DNA of 53,979 nucleotides, taken from the NCBI RefSeq assembly GCF_900099925.1, contig NZ_FNDE01000022.1, forward strand, positions 1 through 53,979, written 5' to 3'. Positions 455-41,955 of the stretch are shown piece after piece (positions within the stretch are counted from its first letter, which is position 1; every line of letters begins with the position of its first letter). This DNA comes from Aneurinibacillus thermoaerophilus. Lineage in GTDB: Bacteria; Bacillota; Bacilli; Aneurinibacillales; Aneurinibacillaceae. Below the pieces are notes generated by a model. It was not told the origin of the DNA and ran no database searches. It worked only from the letters and a program-made list of their open reading frames with translations. A program made the translations under genes and the position numbers.

Positions 455-937
455 ATGTCCGATTTATTATCCAATTTTCCGCTTTGGTCCGCCCTGCTTG
501 CCATTGGCATCGCGCAGGGAATCAAAGTGCCGATTACCTACTTTGCTATCCGCAAATGGGATTGGAAACTATTGTTTAGCACAGGGGGAATGCCCAGTTC
601 CCATTCGGCGGCCGTCACCGCGCTCACAACCGCCGTAGGATTAATCGAAGGGTTCGGCTCTACATTATTTGCGATTTCTGTTATTTTTTCCATCATTATC
701 ATGTTCGATGCAGCTGGCGTGCGCCGACACGCAGGCACCCATGCCGCCGTTCTCAATATTCTGGTCGAGGATTTCAACCAGTTGATCGAGGAACTAAAAA
801 CCATGCGTGTGAAGCCCCGCCGCGAACGCGCAAAAAAATTAAAAGAGCTGCTGGGTCATCAACCAAGCGAAGTGCTGGTAGGAGGCTGGCTCGGTATTGT
901 GCAATCTACCCTTTTGTATTACTTGCTTGACTTGTAG
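455..937 (+). CDS. yuiD: YuiD-type divergent PAP2 membrane protein
   Basis: A 160-residue integral membrane protein of the DUF212 / divergent PAP2 family (B. subtilis YuiD). The phosphatase-like signature is visible as GGMPSSHSA near residues 46-54 and RRHAGTHAAV near 90-99, which correspond to the conserved SxxH and RxxxxxH elements of the PAP2 superfamily. Hydrophobic segments lie at about residues 8-25, 50-70 and 140-158. The substrate is not known; a lipid phosphate is an inference from the superfamily. The start ATG follows GAGGAAAGGAAG. It is convergent with the yuiC-like gene and shares a terminator region with it, the same neighbourhood as in B. subtilis. Confidence 0.9.
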   Translation: MSDLLSNFPLWSALLAIGIAQGIKVPITYFAIRKWDWKLLFSTGGMPSSHSAAVTALTTAVGLIEGFGSTLFAISVIFSIIIMFDAAGVRRHAGTHAAVLNILVEDFNQLIEELKTMRVKPRRERAKKLKELLGHQPSEVLVGGWLGIVQSTLLYYLLDL

Positions 938-969
938 CGCGGCCTTCTAAGACCATGTATAACACGAAA

Positions 970-997
970 GACAGGCCGCGCTTGGCCTGTCCTTTTT
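970..997. terminator. Intrinsic terminator with a competing upstream arm
   Basis: GACAGGCC (970-977) and GGCCTGTC (984-991) form an 8-base-pair hairpin followed by CTTTTTA. A second, mutually exclusive pairing exists: agcgcggcct (936-945), starting at the last codon of yuiD, is the perfect complement of aggccgcgct (973-982). The terminator serves yuiD and could act in both directions. Confidence 0.75.
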
Positions 998-1021
998 ATG
1001 GTATAGGTAAAGATGTTTTTC

Positions 1022-1681
1022 TCATTGTTTTTTCGCTTCATTTTTGCTCATTTGATTGAGCCTCGCAAACACTTCCTCATCCACTTTGCCGTTTCCACGC
1101 TCGATTACATATACGTCCAGTTGCTTTTTCCCCCACTTTTTATATACATCTTCTTTGCTGTCAAAATACAGATCAATTTTGTTTCCTTTAATGGCGGAGC
1201 CAATATCCGCAACTACACCGTAGCCATAGCCCGGTATATAAAGGATCGTTCCGAGCGGAAATACGTTTAAATCAGCAGCAATCGTTGAGAATATGTCGCG
1301 CCGTGCTTTTACGCCGGAATATGTAATCCCATACGCAGGATGGCCAACATCCTTACCGGTCGATTCAGGGCCGGGAGAATATCCGGTTGCTACTACATTA
1401 ACCTTCGGGTACTTTGAAAGCATAGCCAGCGTTTCGACCGTTTCCCCCCGATGCACGAACGGAAAACGTTCAACTTCCTGCGGCTTCTCTGCGCGTTTCT
1501 CCAAGGATGTGTTTTGCTTCAGCGGTGCTGCTTCTTGATGCGCCTTTGTTCCTTCCACGGCCGGAACAACAGGTTTCGGCTCTGTTTCTCCCAGCAAAAT
1601 GTACAGGCCGAGAATGATACAAACAAGCGCGATGAAAAGGTAGGTTAGAGAGCCTTTCACGCTTTTAACGATAATATCCAT
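1022..1681 (-). CDS. yuiC: YuiC-type membrane-anchored 3D-domain protein
   Basis: A 219-residue protein with an N-terminal membrane anchor at about residues 10-32, a charged linker, and a C-terminal 3D domain named after its conserved aspartates. Visible are [17 protein letters not shown] (about 94-110), [22 protein letters not shown] with the first and second Asp region, and NKIDLYFDS (about 166-174). The 3D fold is shared with lytic transglycosylases such as MltA and with stationary-phase muralytic factors, so a role in peptidoglycan cleavage outside the membrane is likely. The ATG at 1681 follows GAGGAGGCTAG. The gene is monocistronic and ends against the terminator shared with yuiD. Confidence 0.9.
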
Positions 1682-1810
1682 GAATTACTAGCCTCCTCTT
1701 CTACTCATCATCTCCCGACCATCCCCGACTTATACATCCAGACAAGAACAAACAGAGCTTGAATTTTCCTGCTAAAATTCGGGAAAACCTTCGTTCTTCA
1801 CATAAGAAAA

Positions 1811-1836
1811 ACCGGGCATGCGCCCGGTCCTTTTTA
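1811..1836. terminator. Orphan bidirectional terminator
   Basis: ACCGGGC (1811-1817) and GCCCGGT (1822-1828) with a four-base loop are followed by CCTTTTT on the plus strand and, read the other way, by GGTTTTTCTT. No gene ends next to it on either strand: the yuiC-like gene starts at 1681 going left and the next gene starts at 2059 going right. It may end a small untranslated RNA or be left from a lost gene. Confidence 0.6.
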
Positions 1837-1938
1837 CTTCTTAACATCTTCAAGCCTATAAAAATGTCTAAATAGGTATGTAAATTTTTTTAACAAATAC
1901 CGATATATAACATGTATATATTTTACAATAAACAAAAG

Positions 1939-2397
1939 AAAGGAGTTAAATAACTCTAATAAAGACGAAATCAGTGACTGGATGAAAAAATAATTAAAGA
2001 ATTAACCAATACTTTAATCAAAAAAATAGAGGAAAATAAAAAGAAGAAGGAGGAATCTATGTCTATTAGTATTGGAGAAAATCGAGCAGCATTTGCTGCC
2101 TATACGAAGTTAACACTTGTTTCTCGCTTCCAGAACCAAATAAACGGCATTCAGCCTAACACTCAGTCCAAAACATCTATGGGATTCCCTGAGTTTATGG
2201 AGCGTCTACGAAAGAATGAAGTCGTTAACGAAAAATATGCTCGTACAATCCTTAATAAACAGCGAGAAGATAGTCTTATTAATAGTCGTTATAACGGGAA
2301 TCCCCAATTCGAAAGCGAAAAATTATCCTTTATTGAGAAAGCCTATAATTTAGGTATTGTAGATGAATACGGTACTTTAATCAATACAAGGTTATAA
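1939..2397 (+). CDS. Small hypothetical protein, probably frameshifted at its 5' end
   Basis: From the ATG at 2059 (after GAAGGAGGAATCT) a 112-residue charged protein of unknown family can be read, beginning MSISIGENRAAF. Upstream reading also looks coding: codons from about 1949 spell SNKDEISDWMKK, then a TAA; after adding one A to the A6 run at 1985-1990 the frame continues IIKELTNTLIKKIEENKKKKEES straight into the ATG at 2059. An AAAGGAG site lies at 1939-1945 but no start codon follows it in frame. Either the 112-residue form is the product, or the gene has lost its start and frame. I do not recognise a domain. Confidence 0.55.
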
Positions 2398-2412
2398 AAA
2401 TGATGCATTAAG

Positions 2413-2446
2413 AAAAAGCGAGTGCGAACGCGGCACTCGCTTTTTC
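2413..2446 (+). terminator. Intrinsic terminator
   Basis: GCGAGTGC (2418-2425) and GCACTCGC (2433-2440) are flanked by A5 and T5, giving a strong hairpin just after the hypothetical gene that ends at 2397. The following 150 bases to the next gene hold nothing I recognise. Confidence 0.85.
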
Positions 2447-2598
2447 CCTAGACCCTTCATGCGTTCCAGCTCCACGGCGCGTCCGCACCTTTCGGAACAG
2501 CCAGAAGCCTGCGGGTTAGAAGTACAAACGAGTACCAGGGAAACAGAACTTCTATGAAGGAGTCAAAGCTACAGGGGGAGAAAGAGTTTCCCTTTCTC

Positions 2599-2868
2599 TC
2601 AGAACATGCGGTATCCTTTCATCCGCAGCGTTTTAATCGTCCAGCCGCTGGCAATAGCACCTACTAGTCCAGAAGTCAACATCACATAGTCTACCATATG
2701 CGGGGTGCGATCATTCATAATCAAATACACCAGCACGCCGATTGCAATGCCCGAATAAAGAAATGCTGGCATCCATGTAGTCTTTATCAGCATGTTTAAA
2801 ATAAACCCTATTCCAAAAAGCAATACGATAAAAAGTGGTATCCCAATAATAAATTGTGCAATATTCAT
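2599..2868 (-). CDS. yuiB: YuiB-type small membrane protein
   Basis: An 89-residue protein with three hydrophobic segments (about residues 4-26, 34-51 and 60-78), matching YuiB of Bacillus in length, topology and neighbourhood. The function is not known. It lies downstream of the yuiA-like gene on the same strand, as in B. subtilis where both sit beside the type II NADH dehydrogenase gene. The start follows a GGGGTGAG site. Confidence 0.82.
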   Translation of the reverse strand: MNIAQFIIGIPLFIVLLFGIGFILNMLIKTTWMPAFLYSGIAIGVLVYLIMNDRTPHMVDYVMLTSGLVGAIASGWTIKTLRMKGYRMF

Positions 2869-2960
2869 CCAATCTCACCCCTATCCTTGTTCCTGGATTT
2901 AAGTGTACTTGATTCGGACAAGGAGGGTCAATCTTCTGTCACGCTTCATTACATCTGATT

Positions 2961-3119
2961 TTATTTTGTCTTTGTTGCCACTCTGGCCTGAGGTTCTCTT
3001 GTTTCTCTCCATTTCCCTCCGCCACATGCTGGACAATCAATTGTACCGCCTGTAGCCAATTGAAAGTATCCGACTCCTTCACAATATATACAATGCTCCT
3101 GGCATACTTTTTTGCTCAT
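2961..3119 (-). CDS. yuiA: YuiA-type small zinc-finger-like protein
   Basis: A 52-residue protein, MSKKVCQEHCIYCEGVGYFQ onwards, with cysteines at 6, 10, 13, 29 and 32. The pairs CIYC (10-13) and CPAC (29-32), each followed by a Gly-rich turn, form a DnaJ-like zinc-binding knuckle. Length, motif and position agree with B. subtilis YuiA. The ATG at 3119 follows TTGGAGGAATATGC. The role is unknown; it may bind zinc. It is probably co-transcribed with the yuiB-like gene 92 bases downstream. Confidence 0.85.
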   Translation of the reverse strand: MSKKVCQEHCIYCEGVGYFQLATGGTIDCPACGGGKWRETREPQARVATKTK

Positions 3120-3193
3120 GCATATTCCTCCAAACACATATTTTCTAAATATCTATATTTTCGGAATATTATAACCAAACTCTTCTCTTCTGT

Positions 3194-3223
3194 AAAGAAA
3201 AAAAGCCTTCATAACGAAGGCTT
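3194..3223 (-). terminator. Intrinsic terminator
   Basis: AAGCCTTC (3203-3210) and GAAGGCTT (3216-3223) form a hairpin whose minus-strand product ends in a run of seven T. It terminates the operon that ends with the gene at 3237. Confidence 0.85.
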
Positions 3224-3236
3224 CCCAGTTCTCATC

Positions 3237-3491
3237 CTACAGCTGTTCTTCATCATTTTTGGCACGCGTCACAATCGGATCGAGATATTCTCGGTTACCG
3301 CGCTGACGTCCTTTTTCCTGAAGCCGCTCAATAGCGGGCTCAATCAGAATTTCCAGCTCGCGCTGAATCGTGTAAGCTAAGTCGTGCCGATTTTGCGATT
3401 CAAGGTATTTGCCCACTTCGAATAATTTTTCATAGCGCAAACGTTCTTCTTCCGTCAGCAACGCGCGCACCTGCACGCTTGCGTGTCTCAC
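3237..3491 (-). CDS. Conserved hypothetical charged helical protein
   Basis: An 84-residue, highly charged protein without a signal peptide or membrane segment, beginning MRHASVQVRALLTEEERLRY. Predicted as almost entirely helical. I do not recognise its family. It starts 13 bases after the dehydrogenase-like gene stop (3505) on the same strand and is followed by a terminator, so the two form a two-gene operon; a role linked to the dehydrogenase is only a guess from position. Confidence 0.7.
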   Translation of the reverse strand: MRHASVQVRALLTEEERLRYEKLFEVGKYLESQNRHDLAYTIQRELEILIEPAIERLQEKGRQRGNREYLDPIVTRAKNDEEQL

Positions 3492-37974: not shown

Positions 37975-38439
37975 TTATTTCAAGATGCGCTTCGCGCCTA
38001 CATAACGTTTTCCCCAGTAATATTTATCATTAATATCATTAATAGCAACACCACGGCCGCTGGAAGAATGAATAAATTTCCCGTCTCCAATATACATACC
38101 CGCATGTGTTACAGGAGCACGACGGGACGTCTTGAAAAATACCAAATCACCCGTACGTAACTGAGAACGAGAAACCGGTGTTCCTCTCTGATACATAGCA
38201 GCTGCCGTACGCGGCAAAGAAATCTTTTCTCTTTTGAAGAGATAATTCAAAAATCCGGAACAGTCAAAACCACTTTTGGTGGTTCCCCCCCACTTATAAG
38301 GCGTTCCTATTAAACTTTTTGCTATCTCCACAAGAGAATTTTCGGCTGCGGAAGCTGTACGGGTACCTATAGGCGCAAACAAAGCGCTAAGAGCGATTGT
38401 CCCAGAAATCGCAAATATCATAATTTTCTTTTTTTTCAT
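37975..38439 (-). CDS. NlpC/P60 cell-wall endopeptidase
   Basis: A 154-residue exported enzyme: signal peptide at about 1-31 (ending ASAAE), then one NlpC/P60 domain. The catalytic Cys is in KSGFDCSGFLNYLF (about residue 60), the His in VTHAGMYIGDG (about 111) and the third polar residue in KFIHSSS. These enzymes cut between D-Glu and the diamino acid of stem peptides. It lacks LysM or SH3 binding domains. Its 5' leader is a c-di-AMP riboswitch, as often seen for nlpC/p60 genes. The best ribosome-binding site, GGGAG, lies 12 bases from the ATG, an unusually long spacing. Confidence 0.93.
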   Translation of the reverse strand: MKKKKIMIFAISGTIALSALFAPIGTRTASAAENSLVEIAKSLIGTPYKWGGTTKSGFDCSGFLNYLFKREKISLPRTAAAMYQRGTPVSRSQLRTGDLVFFKTSRRAPVTHAGMYIGDGKFIHSSSGRGVAINDINDKYYWGKRYVGAKRILK

Positions 38440-38459
38440 AGCCTAGTTTTACTCCCTTC

Positions 38460-38573
38460 ATGCCTACGAGGTTAGTTGACGGGTTAAGAGGAGAAGGTCT
38501 CTTTCCGCTTGCACGGATCCACCCCAAAAATAAATTGTCCCCCGTTCCACGTTACTGTGGATTCGGCAAGTAA
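38460..38573 (-). ncRNA. Cyclic di-AMP riboswitch (ydaO-yuaA type)
   Basis: The minus strand carries the conserved ydaO-yuaA blocks in the right order: GCCGAATCC, ACGGGGGAC, TTGGGGTGGATCC, AACCCGTCAACTAACCTCG and closing TAGGCA. The closing strand (GGCATG) pairs back to CTTGCC at the start. This class binds c-di-AMP and usually turns genes off. Only 21 bases separate its 3' end from the NlpC/P60 ATG, too few for a separate terminator, and the ribosome-binding site starts about two bases after the closing stem. Confidence 0.93.
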
Positions 38574-39062
38574 AATTTTCTATATAATAGGCCACCTCTT
38601 ATAATTAAGGAAATCTTTTTCTTTCTATCTCTTTCCACTAACAACGTTTACAGTTTATCGAATTATATCGAAAAAGAGAAGAATTAGAAGAAAAAGTTCA
38701 CAATTTAGACACATTTTGTTGAATTTTTTTGCAACCTATCGAAATATATCTGTATATTAAGCTGATGTTTACTCGATATGAAAGGAAACGGGGCAAGCAA
38801 CACGCTGCCACGGTCTATCCGGTATGCCTATCATGTTTGCGCCGTCTCTAGCATAGCAAAATGCGAAGGCTTTCTCTTCATGTTTTCCCCTCCCTTTCCC
38901 TCTCGCTCCTGCTCTTTCGATTCACTTTACGCAAACAAAAACCCCTGCTTCCTCTTGGTTAGAAGACACGTTTTCTGACAAAACCATATATATAATGAAA
39001 GGACATTCTATCGAGATTATCGTAAAATTACGGTAAAGCATTCTCAAAAAGGAGATGAGCAT
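38574..39062. other. AT-rich divergent spacer without genes
   Basis: About 490 bases containing promoters of the riboswitch-controlled gene and of the MFS gene. Repeated TATCGAA-like words occur near 38658 and 38738, and a short inverted repeat CGTAA-AA-TTACG lies at 39021-39032 before the MFS gene. A 66-codon plus-strand frame at 38778 lacks a convincing start and composition and is not called. Confidence 0.4.
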
Positions 39063-40533: not shown

Positions 40534-41931
40534 TTATTTCTTCAAATGCCGATCCATCTCAAATCCAGGCAAAGAATGTTCCATATCATGGAAAATACGT
40601 TCAAGTTGAAAGGCCACGCTGCGAATTTCATCCTGTGCGTATTCTTCCTTACGCAGCGTCACGAAATGGGCCAGTCCGTACATGTTTGCATAAAACGGCA
40701 ATCGGCGCGCGTTAGCGTTCAAGACAACATATGGCGCGATGCCAATTAAGCCGTTCTCCACCAATTCATTGTACAATCGGTGCGACTCTGCCCGCATAGT
40801 CAGCAATGTATTGATGATGCGCTCCGCTTCTGGCGTGCCGGATGCTTCCACTGCTTCTTGTGGAAGAATCAAGCCGTAACGCGTATCCGGAAGTTGAAGT
40901 GAAAAGTCGAACGCACGATGCCGGATAATCTGGTGATGACAGCCTTCGGAGCATGTCACCGCCACACGCTTACCAAATGCGCGCATGATGGCGGGAAGTT
41001 CGCTGAATCGGTTCATCTTTGCCAGATCGCCCAGCACCATATCATCCGAGCGTGTAAACGCAAGCGCTGCGGCGTCTTTCGTCACTTCCACAAACGGGCC
41101 GTTATACACCGGCAATGTTTCCGGTTCCTGCACACGACGCTGATAAAACTCTGCCATATAAGAGCAAAGATACGGCGTCGCTTCCGTATGGCTGATAAGC
41201 GAAGGCAGCACTTCGGTCGTATGCTTGCGAATTTTCTGCGCTATCTCCACCACTTCGCTGCTATACCCTTCATGTGATAGCATTTCCGCAATCGCGTCGG
41301 AAATGGCACGAGCATTGCCGGTGACAGCTACGTTTGATTTAGTGGCCAGAGGCAGCACATTGCGCGCATTTTCATACGCAAGCTTTTCTACAGCACTGTC
41401 TTTCATGCCAGGGTGTTTTGCTTTAAGCAAGGCAAAGAAAAGCGGAACAAGCTCTTCATATTTCCGAAAGCATTCTTTGCCAAAGGTGATATAGTGTTCC
41501 TTTAATTCTGGATGCTGATCCAATTCCCGCGGAACAACGAAGTCCTGCGGCTTCTGGTAGCGAAGGCTAAATTCCGTAAAAGATAGCCATTTCGCCGCCT
41601 GCACCGTTTCTAGAATTTCTGTAAACCAGCGAGATACACCTTCAATGCAGAATTGGGCAAAAGCATGCTCTTTAATGCTGGAATGACCGTAATCAACCCC
41701 CCACTTCTTCATGAAACCACCAGCATGTGCCGCCGATTCTTTAAACATCGAAATCATGTCAACATCCGGCAAATGCAGCATATCTTCTTTAATTAAATCG
41801 TACAAATTATCACGGAAGCTGCGCGGACTGCGGCTTACTTTCGCAAAAACAGTGCCGACAACTTCGGTCGGCACATTCTTAATCGCGTATACGTTATCTT
41901 CCGTACTTGTGACATAGTTCTCTAACTTCAT
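40534..41931 (-). CDS. Tandem (two-domain) ThyX-like protein
   Basis: A 465-469-residue protein made of two ThyX-like halves; normal FAD-dependent thymidylate synthases have about 220-250 residues. Using numbering from the GTG at 41943: half 1 (about 20-225) has YGHSSIKEHAFAQF and EGVSR, and at the signature site AAK-x7-S126-LRY instead of RHR-x7-S; its end shows ENARNVLPL and TGNARAI. Half 2 (about 245-460) has RHR (341-343), but Leu351 replaces the Ser; its end has NANARRLPF, HFVTLRK and AQDEIRSV. So each half keeps a different part of the signature. Whether it makes dTMP is unknown. The likely start is ATG 41931 after GAGGTG. Confidence 0.82.
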   Translation of the reverse strand: MKLENYVTSTEDNVYAIKNVPTEVVGTVFAKVSRSPRSFRDNLYDLIKEDMLHLPDVDMISMFKESAAHAGGFMKKWGVDYGHSSIKEHAFAQFCIEGVSRWFTEILETVQAAKWLSFTEFSLRYQKPQDFVVPRELDQHPELKEHYITFGKECFRKYEELVPLFFALLKAKHPGMKDSAVEKLAYENARNVLPLATKSNVAVTGNARAISDAIAEMLSHEGYSSEVVEIAQKIRKHTTEVLPSLISHTEATPYLCSYMAEFYQRRVQEPETLPVYNGPFVEVTKDAAALAFTRSDDMVLGDLAKMNRFSELPAIMRAFGKRVAVTCSEGCHHQIIRHRAFDFSLQLPDTRYGLILPQEAVEASGTPEAERIINTLLTMRAESHRLYNELVENGLIGIAPYVVLNANARRLPFYANMYGLAHFVTLRKEEYAQDEIRSVAFQLERIFHDMEHSLPGFEMDRHLKK

Positions 41932-41955
41932 ATTTTGTTTCACCTCATCCTATAG

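Follow-up and report, generated by a model that had tools for sequence, protein, structure and literature searches.

Can a protein that contains two ThyX folds, but the contiguous signature of a flavin-dependent thymidylate synthase in neither of them, still make thymidylate? The question is raised by an open reading frame on the minus strand of a 53,979-nucleotide stretch of DNA from Aneurinibacillus thermoaerophilus (contig NZ_FNDE01000022.1; the whole stretch is called the window here), which encodes both folds within one chain.

The active site of ordinary ThyX is a composite one. As laid out in section 3.1 of a review (PMC6514825), subunit A of the M. tuberculosis enzyme gives the RHR triplet (residues 95-97) and R199, subunit B supplies S71 and R190 to FAD, and subunit C supplies R87, S105, R107 and the lid residue Y108 to dUMP. 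T. maritima H53 (M. tuberculosis H69) has been described as lying on 'monomer-3' (PMC11940539), and we assigned it to subunit B because of its place beside S71. R174 (M. tuberculosis R199) is reported to activate dUMP, and S88 and Y91 possibly help in the reaction (PMC8316439). The four subunits are arranged with 222 symmetry (PMC3498832).

For the present analysis the residues were grouped into three role sets: A, the RHR triplet and R174; B, the FAD-holding residues; and C, the dUMP and lid residues with S88-x-R90-Y91. T. maritima R147 (M. tuberculosis R172) was added to the C set, where we take it to belong according to its database annotation. In single-domain ThyX, each of the 13 role positions is conserved in 21-24 of 24 rows; for RHR and SxRY this is partly by construction, since a motif pattern had served to select 22 of these rows.

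Gene, start site and fold

The features of the locus are as follows.

40534-41931, minus strand: tandem ThyX gene, 465 amino acids from the ATG at 41931 (469 amino acids with the GTG at 41943, 40534-41943)
41941-41946, minus strand: Shine-Dalgarno-like sequence GAGGTG, 9 nt upstream of the ATG, containing the GTG of the open reading frame list
41173-41898, minus strand: half 1, residues 16-257, ThyX fold (VIA-align Z 14.0 to 3gwc, and residue census)
41557-41598, minus strand: half-1 codons 116-129 (AAKWLSFTEFSLRY), with the lost RHR position and the retained S-x-R-Y lid
40540-41106, minus strand: half 2, residues 280-468, ThyX fold (VIA-align Z 12.5 to 4gtb, and residue census)
40915-40923, minus strand: half-2 RHR codons, residues 341-343 (translation and residue census)

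The ATG at 41931 is the better start, because the GTG sits within the Shine-Dalgarno-like sequence and the first possible start of three orthologues (L004, L005 and L006) falls at the position of the window ATG. Residue numbers of the window protein are given in the GTG numbering.

The Pfam Thy1 profile matches both halves, with 94.8 and 47.3 bits against a cut-off of 24.8, and the whole protein passes NCBIfam TIGR02170 with 91.7 bits against 87.9. The AlphaFold2 model, built from an input alignment of 98 tandem proteins, has a pLDDT of 92.7 and a pTM of 0.91, so that the packing of the two halves is predicted with confidence. When the model was compared with solved structures by VIA-align, residues 16-257 were superposed on M. 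tuberculosis ThyX with an rmsd of 2.7 over 191 aligned residues, and residues 280-468 on T. maritima FDTS with an rmsd of 3.2 over 179. The ThyX chains of solved structure that were matched by sequence are all single-domain proteins of 216-270 residues. Compared by fold alone, the 491-residue ThyX of Microcystis phage LMM01 also matches the window model. The initial annotation had described a tandem ThyX-like protein, and this description holds for both halves by profile and by modelled structure. The kinship of half 1 with ThyX, on which the description had been staked beforehand, is borne out by its alignment to the M. tuberculosis enzyme, which rules out a half 1 unrelated to ThyX.

Elsewhere in the window, a c-di-AMP riboswitch (RF00379, 83.7 bits; 38447-38578, minus strand) lies directly upstream of an open reading frame (37975-38439) that was recognized by eye as having the look of a secreted NlpC/P60 hydrolase.

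Division of the role residues between the halves

Half 1 reads AAK at residues 116-118 and keeps S126-x-R128-Y129 behind it, while half 2 reads RHR at 341-343 and has a Leu at 351. Half 1 retains the B set on the FAD side (H87, S89, N210 and R212) and the C set for dUMP and the lid (R105, S126, R128, Y129 and R194). The A set is gone from it: AAK stands where RHR would be, and Met/Leu at the position of M. tuberculosis R199, the R174 equivalent. Half 2 retains the A set, namely the RHR triplet and R431 as the R174 equivalent. It is without GHxS and without equivalents of S88 and R147, and shows E333, Y422, P404 and a longer loop at the places of the B and C residues. R355-Y356 remain in half 2 behind this loop. 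Counted from RHR to R355-Y356, it exceeds the loop of canonical ThyX by two residues; within the window's own family Y356 is kept in 10/10 proteins and R355 in 6/10.

A contiguous RHRx7S within one subunit is thus absent, the window protein having AAKx7S and RHRx7L, and for this reason the tandem is filed as a variant and not as a canonical ThyX. Over the whole chain, the set of FAD- and dUMP-contacting residues is complete. The two motifs are found exactly where the initial annotation had read them, and the complementary losses that it claimed extend beyond the residues it listed to H87/S89/R212, R105, R194 and R431. Its suggestion of a fused pseudo-dimer with one kind of mixed active site gains support from this role-by-role residue census, in which such a site may be put together from both halves.

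Conservation across tandem homologues

A set of 126 tandem-length proteins was reduced to 106 by removing those 95% alike, and 97 of the 106 were aligned with the window protein. Those left out were L046 (a 714-aa frame), L071 and L111 (cut by a contig end), L148 (weak) and the near relatives L078, L082, L089, L095 and L098. By record title, the aligned rows come from Thermoactinomycetaceae, Alicyclobacillus, Dadabacteria, Deltaproteobacteria, Aenigmatarchaeota, Woesearchaeota, Micrarchaeota, Anaerolineaceae and contigs filed as viral.

The division is no chance arrangement and is seen in 95/98 proteins. RHR occurs at the half-1 position in 0/98 proteins and in half 2 in 98/98. The A set is present in half 2 of 96/98, the B set in half 1 of 98/98 and the C set in half 1 of 95/98. 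The half-1 residues H87, S89, N210 and R212 are all kept in 98/98, and S126, R128, Y129 and R194 together in 95/98. Invariant over the 98 proteins are H87, S89, R194, N210 and R212 of half 1 and R341, H342 and R343 of half 2. The plain pattern RHRx7S matches nowhere in half 1 and in four half-2 sequences (L118, L119, L120 and L129); with S-x-R-Y behind it, it is found in 0/98 in half 2. Plain motif counts gave four RHR-like strings in half 1 (five when the halves are cut one column later) and 14 GHxS-like strings in half 2. Since by column none of these lies at the motif position, column counts were used.

The division is incomplete at a few positions. The equivalent of M. tuberculosis R87 (R105) is replaced by Ile or Met in half 1 of 8/82 non-family rows and of 6/6 large-virus rows. 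Arg is found at the half-2 R165 position in 17/98 proteins, at one of two possible half-1 R174 positions in 7/98, and at the half-2 R147 position in 9/82 non-family rows.

The long ThyX proteins of large phages (L142-L147) have the same division as the window protein, A against B and C (type I). They are 23-24% identical to it, and their half 1 is without the M. tuberculosis R87 equivalent. Tandem thyX genes were located on contigs classed as viral, about 93-529 kb long (L133-L147), and on seven Bacillus/Paenibacillus plasmid records of 200-229 kb (H21-H27), a distribution that points to large phages or phage-plasmids as vehicles of their spread. A search of the phages collection gave 418 matching records, 0 of which covered 80% of the query length.

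The lack of the full motif in either half could also mean that the protein is a repurposed flavoprotein, which has lost thymidylate synthase activity and methylates pyrimidines in some other reaction, or else functions in regulation or redox chemistry. There are precedents: judging from titles of structure entries, Corynebacterium has an atypical ThyX that is not needed for thymidylate, and PolB, a UMP/dUMP methylase according to its entry title, is matched in fold. Such a change of function is hard to reconcile with the retention of all three role sets, for dUMP, FAD and the lid, between the halves of 95/98 proteins. The distribution of other enzymes of thymidylate synthesis bears on it as well.

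Thymidylate synthases and DHFR in carrier genomes

The window genome, which is 99.99% complete and assembled in 103 contigs, gave 0 matches to thyA (PF00303) in a profile search, and the tandem protein was its sole ThyX match. The check for thyA or a normal thyX that had been proposed at the outset thus found neither. A second thymidylate synthase in this genome was ruled out by the lack of such matches, with the proviso that the absence of thyA could be an assembly gap, given the 103 contigs. The genome also carries one DHFR match and a thymidine kinase, by virtue of which thymidine salvage is possible.

Across 250 genomes of the class, thyA is present in 8/40 tandem carriers as compared with 166/210 others (Fisher p 1e-12, kinship ignored), and DHFR above the cut-off in 14/40 as compared with 170/210 (Fisher p 2e-8, kinship ignored). 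For the two DHFR matches that fell short of the family cut-off we took the weakest two on the list, those of G031 and G051. Ten of the 40 carriers belong to the window's own family, 15 others were inspected in the alignment, and G051, G107 and G143 were inspected separately. The remaining 12 (G042, G050, G053, G068, G116, G126, G166, G185, G194, G199, G221 and G230) were counted solely on the basis of two Thy1 matches within a single frame of 460 aa or more. G024 and G176 (frames of 402 and 285 aa) and G117 (two separate genes) were excluded.

Outside the window's own family, thyA was found in a single carrier of 30 (G199) and DHFR in five (G037, G055, G106, G143 and G199), with the weak match of G051 counted as absent. 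For a repurposed flavoprotein, which draws some support from the thyA genes of 7/10 own-family carriers, the absence of thyA from the other 29/30 carriers and the absence of DHFR from 25/30 are difficult to explain. No thyA match was found in any of the 11 genomes that carry a second tandem family (type II, see below), which is likewise unfavorable. The non-catalytic or repurposed protein offered as an alternative in the initial annotation is disfavored by this pattern together with the residue conservation, and we regard it as improbable.

The window's own family

The tandem gene is present in 10/11 genomes of the window's own family (absent from G003) and thyA in 8/11 (absent from the window genome G000, G008 and G009). 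As thyA also occurs in seven of the ten carriers, the tandem is not the sole synthase in these seven. A sequencing or frameshift artefact was rejected, the frame being open in all ten carriers and omega being 0.07 for G004-G006, the one pair with unsaturated synonymous sites.

Changes in the A set or in S126/R128/Y129 are seen in only 3/98 proteins, and all three come from thyA-positive members of this family. G001 has N/Q/N for S/R/Y, G002 has R128H and R431H, and G005 has R105H, S126G, R128C, Y129L and R431H. The tandems of thyA-negative G000, G008 and G009 and of thyA-positive G004, G006, G007 and G010 are intact. Damage is therefore seen in 3/7 thyA-positive and 0/3 thyA-negative carriers, a difference that is not significant (Fisher p 0.475). 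The damaged copies in thyA-positive genomes are consistent with relaxed constraint.

One may ask whether the tandem is a decaying redundant copy, on its way to being lost in a genus where ThyA has taken over. The three damaged proteins and G003, which has thyA and is without the tandem, are what such a course would produce. The window copy, on the other hand, retains every role residue in a genome where thyA is undetectable, and four thyA-positive genomes (G004, G006, G007 and G010) keep intact copies, with the low omega of the G004-G006 pair. Decay is thus an unlikely account of the window gene. It is still less likely, indeed very improbable, that catalysis is confined to one half and the other is a degenerate structural scaffold, a frequent fate of duplicated enzymes that the very divergent own-family half 2 (branch 2.68) might bring to mind, because each half is without some residues that contact FAD or dUMP in ThyX, each has residues invariant over 98 proteins, and one would not expect a scaffold to retain exactly the set that is missing from its partner half.

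Several further observations concern this family. G009 has the tandem and no match to thyA, DHFR or the PF00265 thymidine kinase; the lack of DHFR and PF00265 is in line with a ThyX chemistry that returns THF directly. In a search for the site of a thyA deletion, the gene flanking thyA in G004 had only a 41% identical homologue in G000. In G001-G006 a DHFR gene adjoins thyA (for example L190, 5526-6859), and two DHFR matches each were found in G001, G002, G004, G006 and G010. The own-family half 2 (L003-L012) sits on the long tree branch given above, and its RHR is followed by a fixed FDF[SQ]xQLPDT loop.

A second tandem family with a different division

Type II tandems were found in G051 (L149) and in 10/398 genomes of the phylum (G336, G421, G425, G449, G450, G474, G496, G542, G563 and G564). 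The members (L149 and L159-L168) belong to other Bacillota, and nine full-length ones are 47-55% identical to L149. A viral scan for the type II tandem found none. Both families are complementary tandem ThyX proteins; whereas the window type is divided into A and B+C, type II is divided into A+B and C. Half 1 of type II retains only the C set (R61, S78-Q-R80-Y81 and R143), and half 2 retains A (RHR 306-308 and R394) and B (H281, S283, N383 and R385), with C lost. These role residues hold in 10/10 full-length proteins, except that S283 is Ala in one, and Arg is found in the R147 column of half 2 in 1/10. The AlphaFold2 model of type II, made from 10 sequences, is of low quality, with a pLDDT of 62.2 and a pTM of 0.58.

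In a quick tree, each of the four half-groups falls on one side of a branch with SH-aLRT of 98-100, and the halves of types I and II are separate, which fits one origin for each tandem family. The joins between the half-groups and single ThyX are long branches and were not trusted. Tandem ThyX may have arisen by duplication or by fusion of two different ThyX genes.

Two further features were seen in type II loci. In L189 (G421:C1:173900-178700) a group II intron at about 786-3460, with RF02004 at 848-1037, RF00029 at 3359-3454 and a 614-aa reverse-transcriptase-like open reading frame at 1505-3349, interrupts the tandem thyX; the upstream frame ends in ...GIPIEDAR, at or beside the codon of the R147-equivalent Arg. 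The C-terminus of type II has an invariant Cys cluster (PxCxxGxCxEGKxxCG-like; residues 429, 434 and 441 of L149), a possible metal site that is absent from the type I consensus.

Discussion

The tandem architecture, the modelled folds, the residue partition with its conservation, and the inverse association with thyA and DHFR within one class, all of them seen directly, make it likely that the window gene encodes a working flavin-dependent thymidylate synthase whose composite active site is split between two fused ThyX modules. From them we infer that the protein binds FAD and dUMP and is active, and also its oligomeric state and site geometry. Thymidylate would probably be made only by both halves together.

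How could the two halves share the work? Half 2 would take the part of subunit A, its RHR holding FAD and dUMP and its R174 equivalent polarizing N3 of dUMP. Half 1 would act as B, gripping FAD with the equivalents of H53, S/T55 and R165, and as C too, with the equivalents of S88, R90, Y91 and R147 for dUMP and the lid. As A, B and C belong to separate subunits of the 222 tetramer, a pseudo-tetramer should form from two fused chains. With one half 2 at A, symmetry would place the other at position D. The sites headed by half 2 (A and D) would be complete and those headed by half 1 would be dead, having no RHR. In the predicted pseudo-tetramer two sites would then be complete, each composed of one half 2 together with half 1 from both chains, and the other two would be vestigial. 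Since each complete site would need two half-1 modules from different chains, the same symmetry predicts that the fused chain must still dimerize. The covalent pairing within a chain would be A+B or A+C. The chemistry is expected to be that of ThyX, in which the CH2 of methylene-THF passes to N5 of FAD and on to dUMP and THF is yielded; a reaction of this type would make DHFR dispensable.

Compared with the canonical homotetrameric ThyX/FDTS of T. maritima, M. tuberculosis and H. pylori, the window protein has the same fold in each half, the same FAD/dUMP residue set and probably the same chemistry. It differs in being made of two fused, non-identical halves with a contiguous RHRx7S in neither, and in that four of its ThyX modules are predicted to form two active sites rather than four. 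A 'duplicated ThyX' of Chloroflexi, with a domain duplication that also occurs in a few other species, was noted in 2009 as one that 'has not been characterized' (PMC3224940). It has the same architecture as the window protein, and the description given in that passage speaks neither of a residue division nor of a mechanism. It is probably a member of the same family as the window tandem; an Anaerolineaceae contig (L131) is in our alignment. The ThyX of Chlamydia trachomatis was the subject of a paper by Griffin in 2005. Chlamydia ThyX, which has been studied biochemically, is reportedly unusually long. Among the literature matches listed, all of them open-licence papers, no description of an active-site division was found, which is weak evidence of novelty.

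For a 222 enzyme with three-subunit sites, three splits appear to keep one two-fold axis, and we are inclined to see types I and II as two separate cases of such symmetry breaking. The possible splits would be {A | B+C}, which is type I, {A+B | C}, which is type II, and {A+C | B}, which is predicted. Each division would be irreversible and lead to an obligate complex, a pseudo-heterotetramer in which the number of sites is halved.

If true, the tandem proteins would illustrate how an enzyme that is symmetric and whose subunits share their sites turns asymmetric, each half being free after fusion to lose the residues supplied by its partner. With two separate divisions the evolution of obligate complexes becomes open to test, and a further implication is that screens with the RHRx7S motif would miss such synthases. 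Tandem ThyX is a probable source of DNA precursors in many bacteria and some archaea that have no contiguous synthase signature. ThyX is a studied drug target, and the number of sites and their environment in the tandem forms should differ from those of ordinary ThyX.
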